Positions 6,460 through 19,315 of a stretch of DNA of 37,906 nt are shown here, in pieces. Numbering within the stretch: the stretch's first letter is position 1; each line of letters starts with the position of its first letter. Source of the DNA: Paucilactobacillus suebicus DSM 5007 = KCTC 3549 (GTDB lineage: Bacteria; Bacillota; Bacilli; Lactobacillales; Lactobacillaceae); the NCBI RefSeq assembly GCF_001434475.1, contig NZ_AZGF01000021.1, positions 1-37,906 of the forward strand, written 5' to 3'. Made by a program: the position numbers and the translations under genes. The notes under the pieces are model-generated. The model was not told where the DNA came from, did no database searches, and was given only the letters and a program-made list of their open reading frames with translations.

Positions 6460-7410
6460 TTAGAAGTTATAGTCGCCGCTACTCATAGCTTCAGCATTAC
6501 CCATTAGATAGCCAGCACCAACTTGTGAGAAGAAATCATGATTGGCCGTTTCGGTTGAAATTCCGTTCATTACGATTGGGTTGATATCTTTAATCTCAGC
6601 ATTAGGGAAGCGGGATTCAAAGCCCATATTTTGGAGTGCCTTGTTGGCGTTGTAGTGAACGAATTGTTTAACGTCTTCCGCTAACCCAATCGGCGCGTAA
6701 ACTTCTTCGGTGAACGCAAACTCGTTCTCAAGGAGATCGTCGAGCAACTCATCCATCCACTTTTTGAATGTTTTTTGTTCAGTCGCCGATAGCTCGTTAT
6801 ATCCCAATTGAAATTTGTAGCCGAGGTAGGTACCATGAACAGATTCATCGCGGATCACCAGTTTGATAACTTCAGAAAGATTTGCCAGCTTATTGTTACC
6901 ACGGTACCAAAGTGGGGTAAAAAAGTTGGTATAGTACAAAATTCCTTCAAGAAAGACGCTTGCAACTTTCTTTTCAAGGTTGTTTCCCGTTTGATAAATA
7001 TCATTGATCCGTTTGGCTTTGTATTGCATTCTGGGATTATTGTTCATCCATTTGAATACTTCGTCAACAGTGGCTTGATCGTTCAAAGATGTCAAAATAG
7101 TGCCGTAGCTTTTGGCATGAATTGACTCCATCATCAAAAAGTCATTGAGGACTGCTGCTTCTTTTCGTGTCCGAACGTCGGGCCGCATCACGTCGACTCC
7201 TTCTTCAGATTGGAGTGTGTCCAGCAAGGCTAATCCACCCACAACCCGATTGATAACCGATTTTTCGGTGCCAGAGAGTGTCCGCCAGTCCCGTAAATCA
7301 TTAGAAACAGGTACTCGCGTATCCAGCCAGTATTGTGCCGTTGCTTTATCCCATACATATTCGTCAAGTTCGTCTTCGATGATGTCCCAATTAATTGTTT
7401 TATAGCTCAT
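6460..7410 (-). CDS. nrdF: Class Ib ribonucleotide reductase beta subunit NrdF (catalytic)
   Basis: NrdF holds the dimetal-tyrosyl radical cofactor that starts ribonucleotide reduction in NrdE. The protein is 316 residues, normal for NrdF. All expected ligands are present: Asp64 (ALLDTLQ), Glu95 and His98 (MMESIHAKSY), Glu155 (FLEGILYY), and Glu189 and His192 (IRDESVHGTY), with the radical Tyr102. The C-terminus SSGDYNF is the R1-docking tail. It is the last gene of nrdI-nrdE-nrdF2-nrdF, 14 bp after nrdF2, with AAGGAG before its ATG. Activation would use the flavodoxin NrdI of the same operon. Confidence 0.95.
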   Translation of the reverse strand: MSYKTINWDIIEDELDEYVWDKATAQYWLDTRVPVSNDLRDWRTLSGTEKSVINRVVGGLALLDTLQSEEGVDVMRPDVRTRKEAAVLNDFLMMESIHAKSYGTILTSLNDQATVDEVFKWMNNNPRMQYKAKRINDIYQTGNNLEKKVASVFLEGILYYTNFFTPLWYRGNNKLANLSEVIKLVIRDESVHGTYLGYKFQLGYNELSATEQKTFKKWMDELLDDLLENEFAFTEEVYAPIGLAEDVKQFVHYNANKALQNMGFESRFPNAEIKDINPIVMNGISTETANHDFFSQVGAGYLMGNAEAMSSGDYNF

Positions 7411-7424
7411 TAGTTGAATACTCC

Positions 7425-8351
7425 TTAAAAGTCGTAGTCGTCATCGGTCATTTTTTCAGTGTCCGATTCATTGTTTGCAGCCGTTACCTGTTGCAAAAAT
7501 TGATTTTGATCAATCATCAGTTCTTTGAGTTGCGCCACTAGTGAAGACGGTTGAACTTCGTAGACAGCGTTAAAGCCAAGTGACATTAATGCATGATTGG
7601 CACCATAGGAGGCCAGATTGATGGCTTCGGTGGCATCGTCAAGGTTAGCTTCTAAGAAGTCTTTTTCAGTTTGCATGAGTTGATCAAACTGTGTATTAAT
7701 CCAATACTGCAGTTCGGTTTGATCACTTACAGTGAGTTCTTCAAATCTGAGGCGAAATTTGTAACCAATATAAGCACTAAAAAGAGCGCTACCGCGGAGA
7801 ATATTAGCCAACATTTGGTAAGTATTGACGAGAGCCTGTGTTTGAAGTATTGTCCAGTATTTACCAAACGAGAGCCCAGTTTCAGTCAGAATAAAAAGGG
7901 CTTTTTTCTGTAAGGCCATATCGCTAGTGCTCATTTGGGCTAGTTGGTCAATTTCAGCTTGCAGATTGGCATTATCATCTGCCCAAGTAAAACTTTCACC
8001 GCCGTTACCCGGAATCAGAGCCCGGAAAATGGTCGTACAGCTTTTGGCATGGACTGATTTCATAAAGGTAATGGTGTTTAATACGGATTCTTCTTGTTGA
8101 GTTCGCCGATCGTGGCGAATAGCAGGGGTGCCAACTTCTGATTGGTAGACGGCTAACATTGATGTACCTGCCAACATACGAGTAATGGCCTGTTGTTGAG
8201 TATCTGATAGCTGTTGCCAAGCCGTTTGATCATTCGTGATGGGAATCCGAATGTCCAACCAAAAGTTAGTGGTGAGTCGTTCCCACATGTATTTATCGAA
8301 ATTATCTTTAATATCATCCCAGTTAATTGCTTTGTAGTATAAGTAGTCCAT
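7425..8351 (-). CDS. NrdF paralogue lacking metal ligands and radical tyrosine (pseudo-R2)
   Basis: At 308 residues it aligns along its length with the neighbouring NrdF: shared INWDD, WLDIRIPITND, RRTQQEESVLN, SVHAKS and AYIGYKFRL. By that alignment most cofactor positions are changed: Asp to Ala67 (MLAVYQ), Glu to Lys98, Glu to Ser188 and His to Phe191 (LRGSALFSAY), and the radical Tyr to Cys105 (HAKSCTT). Only His101 and Glu157 remain. It therefore should not bind a normal dimetal centre or form the tyrosyl radical. The frame is intact, and the end DDDYDF keeps the acidic-aromatic R1-docking tail, which argues against a decaying pseudogene. Inference: a structural or regulatory partner of NrdF, as Rnr4 is for Rnr2 in yeast. 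It also differs from metal-free class Ie R2 proteins, which keep the tyrosine. Confidence 0.85.
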   Translation of the reverse strand: MDYLYYKAINWDDIKDNFDKYMWERLTTNFWLDIRIPITNDQTAWQQLSDTQQQAITRMLAGTSMLAVYQSEVGTPAIRHDRRTQQEESVLNTITFMKSVHAKSCTTIFRALIPGNGGESFTWADDNANLQAEIDQLAQMSTSDMALQKKALFILTETGLSFGKYWTILQTQALVNTYQMLANILRGSALFSAYIGYKFRLRFEELTVSDQTELQYWINTQFDQLMQTEKDFLEANLDDATEAINLASYGANHALMSLGFNAVYEVQPSSLVAQLKELMIDQNQFLQQVTAANNESDTEKMTDDDYDF

Positions 8352-8392
8352 CGTTATTTGTTCGTCTCCTTAATTAGGATTCATGGGTATAT

Positions 8393-8406
8393 GGGTCTTG
8401 TGACCC
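8393..8406 (-). other. Small hairpin between nrdE and nrdF2
   Basis: GGGTC-TTGT-GACCC forms a five-pair stem in the 106-bp gap between nrdE and nrdF2. It has no T-run, so it is more likely an RNA-processing or stability element than a terminator, if it is functional at all. Confidence 0.3.
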
Positions 8407-8457
8407 AATAACGTATGCCGGTGTGTTAAACGGACGGTAAGACCCCAAGTGAATTTC

Positions 8458-10626
8458 CTAGATCATGCATGATTCACATTCATTTGCCGTTTTAATTTCA
8501 TCGTCTTCTGTAAACGTTCGAATGTAATAAAGTGACTTAATGCCTTTTGTCCAGGCGTAATTCCGTAACCGGTTAAGGTCTCGGGTTGTCATCTTTAAAT
8601 TGTTATTGTCCTTCCACTCGTAAAGGTCAGGTTTCAAAACTGAACGCATAAATAGTGTCAGACTCATGCCTTGATCAATGTGCTTTTGAGCTACGGCATA
8701 GGTGTCAATAATTTTTCGTTGATCAATATCATATGCGGGTGTGTAGTAAGGCAAAGTTTCGTTAGACAGGTAAGGTGCTGGATAGAAGATTGAGCCTACC
8801 TTATTTTCCTGACGTTGTTCTACTAATTGTGTGATTGGATGAAGTGATGCACTTGTTTCATTGACGTACGAAATTGACCCGTTCGGTGCCACAGCGAGTC
8901 TATTACGATGATAAAGGCCGCCAGTAATCACAGCTTGCTTAAGTGCCTTCCAATCTGTAACAGATGGTAATTTAATATTTTTGAAGATTTTTGCAACTTT
9001 GGTACTCTTAAATTTAAAGTCTGCGTTCAAGTATTGATCGAAGTAACTGCCATCAGCGTACTTTGATTGGTCAAATTTAGCGAAGGTTTCGTGGCGTTCA
9101 CGGGCAATTCGATTGCTCGTAACGAGTGAATAGTAGTTTAAAGCTAGGAAGTAGGCATCAGTAAATTCAAGGGCCTCTGGTGAGCCATACTCAATTTGGT
9201 GGCGTGCAAGGGCAGTATGCAGACCCATAGCCCCTAATCCAATCGTGTGGTAAAGTTCGTTACCATGTTTAACAGTCGGTACTTCCTTAACGTCGGTTGT
9301 GTCAGTTACGAGGGTGAGCGCACGAACAGCAACCTCAACTGAGTGACCGAAGTCCGGCGAGTCAATCATATTCATGATATTAGTTGATCCGAGATTACAT
9401 GAAATATCGGTGCCAATTGTCTTGTACGATAGGTCATCATCAAGTTTTGACGGTTCTTGAGGCTGTAAGATCTCACTACAAAGGTTACTCATAATAATTT
9501 TGCCATCGACAGGGTTAGTTTGGTTGGCCGTATCAATGTTCAAGATGTAAGGATAACCAGATTCTTGTTGGAGTTGAGAAATCTTTTGTTCTAGTTTCCG
9601 CGCGTTAAAAACTGACTTCTTAATATTGGGGTTAGCGACCATGTTGTTATATTCTTTGGTGATATCGATGTAAGCAAATGGCGTACGATATTCACGTTCG
9701 ACATCATAGGGGCTAAAAAGATACATTGGTTCGTTAGTCTTGAGTAATTCATAATATTTATCAGGAACAATCAAACCGAGGGACAAGGTCTTCACCCGAA
9801 TTTTTTCGTCTGCATTTTCCTTTTTGGTATCCAGAAAATGTAAGATGTCAGGATGGAAGACGTTGAGATAAACCACTCCGGCGCCGTTCCGTTGCCCAAG
9901 TTGGTTACTGTAGCTAAATGAGTCTTCAAGTAACTTCATCACTGGTACAACGCCAGACGAGGCGTTGGAAATCTGCTTAATAGGATCACCTGAGGCGCGC
10001 AAGTTTGACAGGTTAACGCCGACGCCCCCACCGATTCGAGATAGTTGAAGGGCAGAATTAACGCCGCGTCCAATTGAGAGCATGGAGTCGGCCACATCGA
10101 TTAAAAAACATGATACCATTTCACCGCGCCGTTTTTTACCCGCGTTGAGAAACGTGGGGGTGGCAGGCTGATAACGTTGTGAAATCAATTCATCGGCAAC
10201 GTCATTGGCAAGTTGTTCATCACCATTAGCGAGATAGAGGGCATTGAAGACGACGCGATCGACAAAGTCTTCCAAAAATTGCTGGCCATCATTAGTTTTC
10301 ATGGCATATTGTGTGTAGAACTTGTAGGCACCGAGAAAGCTGCGAAAACGAAAGTGATGGTCTCTCATTTGGTCGAACAAGGACTGCACAAACTTGTGTG
10401 AGTATTGTTCCAGGATACTTGGATCGATATAATCTTCGTCAACCAAGTAATTTAACTTGGCATTTAACGAATCAAATTGCTTGGTCTTCGGTTTAACTGT
10501 CTCTTCGAAATAAGCCTTTAGGGCTTCTTGATCATAATGTAGCGGAATTTCTCCGTTGCTTGGGATATTTACGAGGTTATTTAAGTAAAAATAGGTATTT
10601 TCCATTTCTGGGGTGCTAGTTACCAT
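8458..10626 (-). CDS. nrdE: Class Ib ribonucleotide reductase alpha subunit NrdE
   Basis: NrdE reduces ribonucleoside diphosphates to deoxyribonucleotides using a thiyl radical and a redox cysteine pair. The 722 residues include PATPTFLNAGKKRRGEMVSC (first active-site Cys), the glycine-rich RIGGGVGVNLSNLRASGD, IIMSNLCSEILQP with the N-x-C-x-E catalytic motif, ISCNLGSTNIMN (second redox Cys) and the C-terminal shuttle cysteines ECESCMI. It starts 7 bp after nrdI stops, with GAAGGAG upstream of the ATG, so the two are co-transcribed. No nrdH glutaredoxin-like gene is in the operon, so the reductant must come from elsewhere in the cell. Confidence 0.95.
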   Translation of the reverse strand: MVTSTPEMENTYFYLNNLVNIPSNGEIPLHYDQEALKAYFEETVKPKTKQFDSLNAKLNYLVDEDYIDPSILEQYSHKFVQSLFDQMRDHHFRFRSFLGAYKFYTQYAMKTNDGQQFLEDFVDRVVFNALYLANGDEQLANDVADELISQRYQPATPTFLNAGKKRRGEMVSCFLIDVADSMLSIGRGVNSALQLSRIGGGVGVNLSNLRASGDPIKQISNASSGVVPVMKLLEDSFSYSNQLGQRNGAGVVYLNVFHPDILHFLDTKKENADEKIRVKTLSLGLIVPDKYYELLKTNEPMYLFSPYDVEREYRTPFAYIDITKEYNNMVANPNIKKSVFNARKLEQKISQLQQESGYPYILNIDTANQTNPVDGKIIMSNLCSEILQPQEPSKLDDDLSYKTIGTDISCNLGSTNIMNMIDSPDFGHSVEVAVRALTLVTDTTDVKEVPTVKHGNELYHTIGLGAMGLHTALARHQIEYGSPEALEFTDAYFLALNYYSLVTSNRIARERHETFAKFDQSKYADGSYFDQYLNADFKFKSTKVAKIFKNIKLPSVTDWKALKQAVITGGLYHRNRLAVAPNGSISYVNETSASLHPITQLVEQRQENKVGSIFYPAPYLSNETLPYYTPAYDIDQRKIIDTYAVAQKHIDQGMSLTLFMRSVLKPDLYEWKDNNNLKMTTRDLNRLRNYAWTKGIKSLYYIRTFTEDDEIKTANECESCMI

Positions 10627-10632
10627 TAGGGA

Positions 10633-11070
10633 TTACTCCTTCGTTGTTTGAAAACAAAATTGATTGCGATAGGTTAAGATGGCATCGGCAATGCGAGGAA
10701 TGTCGTGTGCAGTGCCACGTAGCTCAAAATCGGTAATGTAAGGAAAATCGAAGCGTTTAGCATATTGTTTAGCCGTGAGTGCAAACTGCTTATTAAAATT
10801 ACGATTACCGCTACCGATAATACCGTAGCAATGCTGGTAATTGCCTTCGTACGCGAGGTAATCTCCCAAAATAGTGGTTAATATTTCAGTATAACCGTTA
10901 TTAACCCCATTACCACCTTTAAGAAAGGCTGGTAGGAAGGTAACAAACGGCTGGTCAAGAGTGGTGAATTCAGGGTGTTCTTTAACATTAATTGAACTAA
11001 CCCGAACATGACGTTCTTTCTCAAAGTATGTTGTCAGTCTGCTAATAAAACATTTCGTGTTGCCACTCAA
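10633..11070 (-). CDS. nrdI: NrdI flavodoxin, start uncertain
   Basis: NrdI is a small FMN protein that delivers oxidant to assemble the manganese cofactor of NrdF. Visible features are the phosphate-binding SLSGNT, PFVTFLPAFLKGGNGVN, YGIIGSGNRNFNKQF and DFELRGTAHDIPRI. The TTG at 11070 falls inside the SLSGNT loop, so it would remove the first strand and cannot be the true start. The same frame continues upstream as INILYISLSGNT to an ATA at 11091-11089, and reaches a stop at 11109-11107 without ATG, GTG or TTG. An ATG preceded by AAGGA lies at 11110-11108 but is one base out of frame. A single-base indel, mutation or sequencing error, between 11091 and 11108 would reconcile them. Confidence 0.85.
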   Translation of the reverse strand: MSGNTKCFISRLTTYFEKERHVRVSSINVKEHPEFTTLDQPFVTFLPAFLKGGNGVNNGYTEILTTILGDYLAYEGNYQHCYGIIGSGNRNFNKQFALTAKQYAKRFDFPYITDFELRGTAHDIPRIADAILTYRNQFCFQTTKE

Positions 11071-16949: not shown

Positions 16950-17756
16950 TTGAGGAGAAAAGAGATCTGGCAGTCTGCCATTGTAAGAACATTTAGCCCT
17001 AAGTACTTATTCAGTGATTTATTTCAAGTAAGTGATTTCAAAAGAATATACCTATTTTTTTTGTTACTTATTCAACTAGTATCGTTTTTTTTAATATTCA
17101 TTAATGGTAAAATTCAATTTCAGTTTTCACCAACAATCATCAATAATATAAGTCTATTAGCAGCCATTACTGGAGTATTAAGCGTCGTCTTAGTCGCTAA
17201 TGGAAAAATAACGAACTATTTTTGGGGAATTGTTGAGAGCATTGCCTATATTTACGTTTCATTTGAAAGCCATTTGTATGGCGAGGTTTATTTAAACCTT
17301 TTCTTTATTTTGATGGATTTCATCGGCATTTATCAATGGACTAAAACTGAAAAACCTCAGCAGGAACAAAGCAAAAAGAAGGTAACTGCAAGGTCAATGT
17401 CAATTCGTGGCTGGTTTTTCCTGGCAATAACATTAGTATTGTCTTGGTGGTTATTATCCCTATTTTTATCTAGAGTACCCTTTATTACTCCACAGTTAGA
17501 TCCACATCCTTATATAGACTCAATGAGTACGGTGCTGCAAGTCTTTGCTATGATATTAATGGCGTTTAGATTTGGTGCAAGTCAATGGTTGTTATGGAAT
17601 ATTTCGCATATCGCAGAACTAATATTATGGACTGTCAATTTTAATCCCGTTATGTTGGCCTTGTGGATTGCATTTTCAATCAATTCAATTTACGGATTTT
17701 ATGTATGGACGTTCAAACTAAAGGATGGTGCACAGGAGCGTGACGCGATAGTATGA
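16950..17756 (+). CDS. PnuC/PnuN-family nucleoside-type transporter
   Basis: PnuC proteins are membrane channels that let unphosphorylated pyridine ribosides or related nucleosides into the cell, where they are trapped by metabolism. The TTG start follows AAAAGGAG by 9 bases. The 268 residues contain about seven membrane segments and the core signature WGIVESIAYIYVSF then LYGEVYLNLFFILMDFIGIY (residues ~92-126), followed by QW. A cytosolic linker (KTEKPQQEQSKKKV) and further helices end in YGFYVWT. The stop overlaps the next start by 4 bp, so it is translationally coupled to a GH78-like glycosidase. That context suggests a substrate that is a glycoside, and not necessarily nicotinamide riboside. 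Confidence 0.8.
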   Translation: MRRKEIWQSAIVRTFSPKYLFSDLFQVSDFKRIYLFFLLLIQLVSFFLIFINGKIQFQFSPTIINNISLLAAITGVLSVVLVANGKITNYFWGIVESIAYIYVSFESHLYGEVYLNLFFILMDFIGIYQWTKTEKPQQEQSKKKVTARSMSIRGWFFLAITLVLSWWLLSLFLSRVPFITPQLDPHPYIDSMSTVLQVFAMILMAFRFGASQWLLWNISHIAELILWTVNFNPVMLALWIAFSINSIYGFYVWTFKLKDGAQERDAIV

Positions 17757-19315
17757 CGTATTCTTTTAACAATTCCAGTTCAGAAAAATTCCAGCAAATT
17801 TCTGGTAGTCAATTCCAGGAAGATTCCAAATTGCTTTCCAATGCACCTAACATTACACTGCAAACACAACTAATAAAACCCGCTGCCATCATGATAATTA
17901 CTAACTCTGGCAAGAAGAGAATTGTCAGTGACGAGTCAGTAGAAATAAAACCAGGTCAAAAATTAGTTTATGATTTGGGGTCCCTTTACGTCGGTTACTT
18001 TACTGTAAAGTGTCAATCTGTAGGTTCTCCGATGGATGCGCCTTTACTCTTAAAAACACGCTTCGCTGAAATTCAAACAGAACTAAATATTGATGCCAGC
18101 CAAATTAAGAGTTGGTTACCTTTATCTTGGATACAAGATGATATACAAACCATTGAGGTGTTGCCAAACCAATTAAGTTACCGTAGACGGTTCAGCTGTC
18201 GATATATTTGTTTAGAACCTATCGGACAATCCCTTAAATGGCAACCGGAATTTAAAGAGCCTATTTTTAAAGCGGAAAGTGCGGTATTGAATGACACTGT
18301 AAAGCCCTTGAAGCATGTATCTCAATGGATTCAAGATATTGATCAGGCTTGCATTAAAACACTTCGTAATACAATGCAGGAGGTCTTCGAAGATGGCACA
18401 AAGAGAGATCAGCGATTATGGGTCAGTGATTTTGAAATACAGGCAAAAGTAAACTATGCAACGTTTAATAATCATGAGTTGCCCAAACGGTGCCTTTATT
18501 TACTTGGCAGTTATATAGATGACAAAGGACGACTTCCAGCTGATGTCTTGACAAGGTTGGAAGAACCCGTTGCTGATGATTTGTTTTGGTTCGATTATGA
18601 ACTACTCTTTATTGTTGCACTTAAAGAATATATGTGTGCCACATCAGATGAGTCTCTGCTATCAAATTTATATCCAGTAGCCAAACGCGCATTCAAATTT
18701 ATCCAAGATCAATTAACAAACACGTCAACAGTTGGAAATCGCAAGGATATTTTTATTGATTGGTCCACCCATTTTAACAAAGAAACGGCTGTTCAGGCCG
18801 AACTCTTGATGGCAATTTCGAGTTTTATAGAATTGGCCCAACTTTCTAATGATAAAGATGTTAAACTTTATACCCAATTTTTTGTGCAAGTAAAGAAACA
18901 ATCTTTGACAGAGTGCTATAACTACAATGAACATCAATTTACTAGCGGTTCACAAAAAGAAATTAATCCATTAAGTCAAATTTTTATGCTGCTGACTGAT
19001 CTTCTGCCTGAAAAAGAAACGCAATTAGTTATTGATCGTTTGCAATCACAATTTGACCTTGAAAAGATTCTCACTACTCCAAGTACACAGGGGCTTCTAG
19101 CAGAAGCGCTTTTCAAACACAATCGCAGTGATGAAGCATTGACTGTTATCAAAAATTATTGGGGAGGAATGTTGAGACAGGGTTCCGATACATTTTGGGA
19201 AGTTTTTGACAAAGATAATTTGTCCTATTCACCGTACGGATCGCCTTTGCTTAATGGATACTGTTTCGGTTGGAGTAGTTACCCATCCTATTTATTTAGA
19301 AAATACTTGCAATAA
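17753..19315 (+). CDS. GH78-like six-hairpin glycosidase (alpha-L-rhamnosidase family)
   Basis: GH78 enzymes remove terminal rhamnose from glycosides by inversion. The 520 residues lack a signal peptide, so the enzyme is cytosolic. The N-terminal ~170 residues are beta-rich. The catalytic (alpha/alpha)6 region begins near residue 190 and shows FEDGTKRDQRLWVSDFEIQA (~212-231), the family block with the Asp/Arg-rich acid motif, and the C-terminal SDTFWEVFDKDNLSYSPYGS with the conserved Glu. Some canonical positions are altered (usually RRLWLGD, here QRLWVSD), so substrate or activity may differ. It overlaps the transporter gene by ATGA. It is shorter than secreted GH78 enzymes. Rhamnosidase activity is inferred from the family only. 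Confidence 0.75.
   Translation: MTYSFNNSSSEKFQQISGSQFQEDSKLLSNAPNITLQTQLIKPAAIMIITNSGKKRIVSDESVEIKPGQKLVYDLGSLYVGYFTVKCQSVGSPMDAPLLLKTRFAEIQTELNIDASQIKSWLPLSWIQDDIQTIEVLPNQLSYRRRFSCRYICLEPIGQSLKWQPEFKEPIFKAESAVLNDTVKPLKHVSQWIQDIDQACIKTLRNTMQEVFEDGTKRDQRLWVSDFEIQAKVNYATFNNHELPKRCLYLLGSYIDDKGRLPADVLTRLEEPVADDLFWFDYELLFIVALKEYMCATSDESLLSNLYPVAKRAFKFIQDQLTNTSTVGNRKDIFIDWSTHFNKETAVQAELLMAISSFIELAQLSNDKDVKLYTQFFVQVKKQSLTECYNYNEHQFTSGSQKEINPLSQIFMLLTDLLPEKETQLVIDRLQSQFDLEKILTTPSTQGLLAEALFKHNRSDEALTVIKNYWGGMLRQGSDTFWEVFDKDNLSYSPYGSPLLNGYCFGWSSYPSYLFRKYLQ

Follow-up and report, generated by a model that had tools for sequence, protein, structure and literature searches.

The Rnr2/Rnr4 pair of yeast belongs to a eukaryotic class Ia RNR. 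Rnr4-type β′ is described as needed for correct folding of R2, with a ββ′ heterodimer as the active form (PMC3267527). In Plasmodium an α2ββ′ complex is reported for the apicomplexan protein R2e2 (PfR4; PMC3824934), and both yeast Rnr2/Rnr4 and Plasmodium R2/R4 are described as working as β plus β′ (PMC3267527, PMC3824934). Class Ie R2 proteins (QSK and VPK) are reported to derive from class Ib NrdF through loss of metal ligands; three Glu are lost, the Tyr is kept as DOPA, and the protein is itself the active subunit (PMC11846895). VPK genes are nearly always arranged nrdFIE, the order of QSK genes varies and includes nrdIEF, and the sections of this 2025 study cited here treat only these two variants (PMC11846895). 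For Lactococcus lactis plasmid pGdh442, NrdE, NrdF and NrdI are listed as plasmid-borne, and the cited passage mentions no second NrdF (PMC3019208). The short nrdB of Liberibacter was set aside as not comparable, being described as a truncated near-copy of the long form (PMC5154197). As far as these sources go, the plasmid operon as such is already known from pGdh442 and the bacterial β plus β′ arrangement appears to be new. Our search of an open-access library found no description of a bacterial nrdE-β′-nrdF or ββ′ arrangement.

A ligand-poor NrdF paralogue in a class Ib operon

The window is the whole stretch of DNA analysed, 37,906 nucleotides from Paucilactobacillus suebicus. On its minus strand (11070-6460), the ORF list and a profile search place nrdI, nrdE, β′ and nrdF in that order (Table 1), separated by 6, 106 and 14 nt. 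NrdE scores 1093 bits against TIGR04170 (cut-off 750) and NrdF 430 bits against TIGR04171 (cut-off 355). NrdI reaches 110 bits on PF07972 (cut-off 27) and stays under the NCBIfam cut-offs, at 55.9 versus 74.65 for TIGR00333 and 182.6 versus 190 for NF002714. With NrdE and NrdF over their cut-offs and NrdI present, the operon is a predicted class Ib RNR operon. The same contig encodes RepA, MobA/MobL and ParM-like proteins and is therefore plasmid DNA, as had been supposed in the preliminary description. A separate contig of the same genome carries ordinary nrdEF, so the β′ operon may be dispensable. Elsewhere in the window, a 113-nt direct repeat (325-437 and 943-1055, 84% alike) lies within an ORF (79-1062) resembling a putative restriction specificity subunit, and an α-L-rhamnosidase-like gene (17753-19315) immediately follows an NMN transporter gene.

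Table 1. Features of the nrd operon in the window.
Feature	Position	Strand	Basis
nrdI, flavoprotein activase	10633..11070	-	PF07972; start mechanical, pST-III annotation slightly longer
nrdE (α), class Ib catalytic subunit	8458..10626	-	TIGR04170
β′ (NrdF2), ligand-poor NrdF paralogue, 308 aa	7425..8351	-	ORF, PF00268, alignment
β′-nrdF gap, 14 nt	7411..7424	-	measured
nrdF (β), complete class Ib radical subunit, 316 aa, β′ partner	6460..7410	-	TIGR04171
β′ Ala67 codon (lost Asp64 ligand)	8151..8153	-	alignment
β′ Lys98 codon (lost Glu95 ligand)	8058..8060	-	alignment
β′ Cys105 codon (lost radical Tyr102)	8037..8039	-	alignment
β′ Gly187 codon (lost Asp188)	7791..7793	-	alignment
β′ Ser188 codon (lost Glu189 ligand)	7788..7790	-	alignment
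β′ Phe191 codon (lost His192 ligand)	7779..7781	-	alignment
NrdF Tyr159 codon, metal-capping position	6934..6936	-	alignment; Phe in ordinary NrdFs examined

The β′ frame is open throughout, and its product is 32% identical to the downstream NrdF. A score of 142.3 bits on PF00268 (gathering cut-off 33.6) places it in the R2 superfamily; at 190.8 bits it lies under the curated TIGR04171 cut-off of 355 for class Ib NrdF. When the two proteins are aligned, NrdF has all six metal ligands, Tyr102, Asp188, Trp28 and the tail. The β′ substitutions, with NrdF numbering first, are D64>A67, E95>K98, Y102>C105, E189>S188 and H192>F191, together with D188>G187, at the Asp immediately before a Glu ligand. 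Two of the six ligands remain (His98 and Glu155), plus Trp28 and the tail DDDYDF, and the full class Ib set of six ligands and radical Tyr is absent from this protein. We take NrdF Asp188 to be the radical-transfer Asp (E. coli D237) and Trp28 to be the Trp of the same pathway (E. coli W48). The alignment confirms the earlier reading of two tandem NrdF-like genes, the second with every ligand and Tyr102, the first with Ala, Lys, Ser and Phe in place of ligands and Cys in place of the radical Tyr, and this first copy with an intact, near-full-length frame and the DDDYDF tail. The D188>G187 change and the unusual Tyr159 of the intact NrdF come in addition to that reading.

Structure prediction of β′ gave a pLDDT of 84.9 from a 40-row alignment and 59 from a 13-row alignment. 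The model has a full R2 fold (TM 0.84/0.92 against S. sanguinis NrdF, 4n83), which is not independent evidence because ordinary NrdFs were in the alignment. In the model β′ thus shares the fold of class Ib NrdF (S. sanguinis 4n83, E. coli 3n37), but unlike those proteins it is missing cofactor and radical-transfer residues. The partner β is a normal class Ib NrdF except for Tyr159 and other near-fixed changes.

Like the yeast pair, the locus combines a ligand-poor R2 homologue with a complete R2, here in adjoining genes, and this juxtaposition is found at the β′-nrdF loci generally. Unlike yeast Rnr2/Rnr4, the system is bacterial and class Ib, with NrdI, a shared operon, Tyr159 in the partner and a heterodimer that is predicted. 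R2e2 and β′ are alike in being long-branched, non-canonical R2 proteins whose frames are intact, whose C-terminus is conserved and whose radical Tyr varies; R2e2 differs in being eukaryotic and in having its iron ligands listed as conserved (PMC3824934).

Distribution and gene order of the β′-nrdF pair

We found β′ in 20 of 301 Lactobacillaceae genomes (the window's own included), with nrdF immediately after it in each. Across the order, a search at 1e-60 returned at least 15 of 395 genomes, a lower bound because this threshold misses Asn-type β′ such as that of genome G539. In one family 6 of 18 genomes have β′, five of them on contigs longer than 1 Mb, and in another 4 of 105 match an E. faecalis plasmid β′ at E ≤ 1e-60. 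Phylum searches used cut-offs too strict for distant β′: at E ≤ 1e-80 only the window's own genome was returned (1/398), and at 1e-100 (2/249) it was joined by one genome of the same order, whose NrdF has Phe159. Hosts within the Lactobacillaceae include Lactiplantibacillus, Latilactobacillus, Levilactobacillus, Pediococcus and Loigolactobacillus, among others; hosts outside it include Enterococcus and Lactococcus, on plasmids. In a scan of 72,556 plasmid records, the best-matching place reached 60% identity or more to the window β′ in 165. We also sampled 60 plasmid records down the NrdF ranking. A second NrdF-like place occurs in all 25 with an NrdF at least 68% identical, versus 1 of the 35 below that level, the one being a record from Lactobacillus crispatus, where the match is partial and lies close to the record end. 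The two-NrdF arrangement is more widespread than first noted.

β′ immediately precedes nrdF at all paired loci examined, and nrdE, where found at such a locus, always sits directly upstream of β′. In all but one of 24 operons the β′-nrdF gap is -1 to 65 nt; the exception has 210 nt. The β′ of Enterococcus sp. DA9 is still full length at 31% identity to that of the window, and recurrence of the nrdE-β′-nrdF arrangement with β′ this divergent argues against chance. The preliminary description had proposed, as a check on function, a repeated order with the same missing ligands; the order does recur, and the core losses are the same. At locus L098 (4882-8211), nrdI-β′-nrdF stands with no nrdE within its 12 kb, and in that genome nrdE adjoins the other nrdF genes.

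A divergent ORF beside the L098 operon looks by eye like a Crp/Fnr-type regulator, and a Crp/Fnr regulator is annotated beside the operons on an Enterococcus (L112) and a Lactococcus (L113) plasmid. An 82-kb IMG/VR viral contig (L117), perhaps a misfiled plasmid, carries the same β′-nrdF pair. On E. faecium plasmids NZ_CP066660, NZ_CP076478 and NZ_CP066422, the match covered roughly the first third of an NrdF-like gene and no more. The plasmid records examined label β′ merely as reductase beta subunit.

Residue loss, conservation and selection in β′

Losses were counted over 18 β′ representatives less than 85% identical to each other. Copies shorter than 280 aa were removed before the ligand tables and trees, which therefore cannot reveal broken copies such as the split copy L116, itself removed by this filter. 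All 18 have lost Asp64 and Asp188 and retain Trp28 and the tail Tyr. The other losses are Glu189 (11), His192 (11), Tyr102 (9), Glu95 (4), Glu155 (3, with Asp in two of the three) and His98 (2). Seven of the 18 keep both Glu189 and His192, which looks like an intermediate stage. One branch retains five of the six ligands and the radical Tyr, so the earlier term "cofactor-less" holds for the window's branch and does not extend to the whole group.

That branch is an argument for β′ as a redox subunit with another cofactor (a single metal, none, or a modified residue) in the manner of class Ie, whose R2 is reported to work without metals (PMC11846895). β′ resembles class Ie in being NrdF-derived and in having lost metal ligands. 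It differs in the loss of Asp64 and Asp188, in the loss of Tyr102 in half of the representatives, and in having a complete partner. The QSK and VPK patterns occur in none of the 18 (the window β′ reads K/E/S with Cys), which rules out class Ie membership by pattern. With Asp188 gone throughout and Tyr102 in half of the representatives, we consider a redox role for β′ improbable.

Conservation of β′ is graded along the chain, with means of 0.61 (residues 1-130), 0.48 (131-205), 0.37 (206-300) and 0.53 (tail). The difference between residues 1-130 and 206-300 is strong (p=3e-11), whereas the corresponding difference in the partner β at the same loci is not significant (p=0.29). The β homodimer interface is reported to involve the N-terminal half (PMC8463856, review), and in the B. 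anthracis NrdF dimer the N-termini are described as exchanged (PMC6754363). This is the pattern expected of a retained dimer partner whose active site has been freed. Alternatively, β′ could be a regulator or decoy, a cofactor-dead homodimer using its intact tail to compete for NrdE (or NrdI) and hold back the reductase. A tail Tyr that never changes while the cofactor site decays would suit such a role. However, conservation is concentrated in the dimer half rather than in the tail alone, the position just upstream of nrdF in one operon suggests matched dose, and L098 has the pair without an adjoining nrdE. Close nrdF spacing, L098 and the conserved dimer half lead us to lean towards β-β′ pairing and to regard a decoy as unlikely.

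Of 19 pairs run for dN/dS, four had saturated dS for β′ and 15 were computable. The β′ ratio is 0.07-0.18 in 14 of these 15: 0.08-0.13 for the window β′ against eight relatives (L012-L018, L115) and 0.07-0.18 for six other pairs. The remaining pair, L015-L018, gave 1.88 at a dS of 0.005 and is uninformative. For NrdF the same 15 pairs gave 0.02-0.04 in 11 and 0.11-0.27 in four (dS <0.03). The purifying selection on β′ that had been suggested as a second check is thus seen. None of the 20 Lactobacillaceae copies has an internal stop codon, which together with the low dN/dS rules out a pseudogene or a chance frame. A slower decay, in which β′ is a duplicate carried along by a useful operon, draws on its faster divergence than its neighbours, the graded ligand loss and one broken copy (L. 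plantarum plasmid L116, 6001-6926, with β′ annotated as two 154-aa frames and nrdF intact). The absence of inner stops, the low ratios and full length kept down to 31% identity, in plasmid copies as well as in those from contigs exceeding 1 Mb, make it very improbable.

Averaged across 24 operons, protein divergence is 0.54 for β′ versus 0.21 for NrdF (about 2.6-fold). Distances of β and β′ correlate closely (Mantel r=0.95, p=0.0005). Those of NrdE and NrdI, however, track NrdF nearly as closely (0.92 and 0.94), so this co-divergence shows joint inheritance rather than contact. Between L016 and L018, synonymous divergence is 0.076 for β′, 0.38 for nrdE and 0.68 for nrdF; such inequality between neighbouring genes suggests recombination inside the operon (6460-10626 in the window).

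In the tree of all β′, a single branch (96/97) separates these from the rest, and the partner NrdFs form one clade (100/100), with both divided into the same three main subgroups. Under midpoint rooting β′ lies outside all NrdFs, with long-branch warnings. An outgroup tree with the six slowest β′ (22 of 28 β′ rows omitted) places β′ as sister to the partner NrdFs (85/85, not starred). These six group with Lactobacillales NrdFs; no eukaryotic R2 was included in the trees. The NrdF rows L004 and L026 counted as unpaired in the all-β′ tree, their β′ having been removed as duplicates, and as paired in the NrdF comparison; L004 was paired in the outgroup tree as well. β′ probably arose through a duplication at the stem of the partner NrdF lineage.

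The partner NrdF and a predicted ββ′ small subunit

Position 159 of NrdF, four residues past the Glu155 ligand, is Tyr in 31 of 31 partner NrdFs versus Phe in 42 of 42 unpaired ones, and further loci agree. Among 69 distinct NrdF-like sequences from viral contigs, residue 159 is Phe in 67, Tyr in one and Ser in one. The Tyr and Ser belong to NrdF and β′ of the L117 operon; outside it, all 67 have Phe. Altogether, 24 near-fixed differences separate the 31 distinct partner NrdFs from the 42 unpaired, 15 of them in residues 1-130, a weak excess (p=0.03). The partners form one clade, so Tyr159 and the other changes count as one event, retained since then, not 31. Position 159 corresponds to Phe165 in B. 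anthracis numbering and, we presume, to F208 in E. coli. An engineered E. coli protein with F208Y is reported to form iron-bound DOPA. The invariant Tyr159 suggests that the metal-site chemistry of the partner may have changed when the β/β′ pair arose.

We favour, at a probability of about 0.7, a class Ib RNR whose small subunit would be ββ′ and would work like yeast Rnr2/Rnr4; the decoy, redox and decay readings are weaker. In this ββ′ enzyme, β would carry the dimetal site and tyrosyl radical and be activated by NrdI. β′ would be a retired copy with neither the normal dimetal-Tyr cofactor nor a passage for the radical, and would be retained for two contacts, its N-terminal half pairing with β and its C-terminal tail docking on NrdE. 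It may stabilise or activate β, setting up a one-sided complex. We infer the heterodimer, the stabilisation and the one-sided catalysis from sequence comparison. More tentatively, and on balance doubtfully, the system could be a new RNR subclass with an obligate bacterial ββ′, in which a single β would do the chemistry, β′ would be a dedicated assembly partner, Tyr159 would be modified (as in the F208Y protein) or redox-active, and the cofactor would be unlike those of class Ia-Ie.

With just one possible radical site in the small subunit, the half-of-sites behaviour of RNR would become directly testable. The graded β′ series, in which between one and four of the six ligands are missing, illustrates how an enzyme subunit can turn into a structural partner, and the label of reductase beta subunit hides that β′ probably cannot work alone. 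Tyr159 leads us to expect unusual chemistry at the metal site of a natural enzyme of food bacteria. If the ββ′ reading is true, β′ would be a bacterial counterpart of the eukaryotic pseudo-subunits, retained for assembly.
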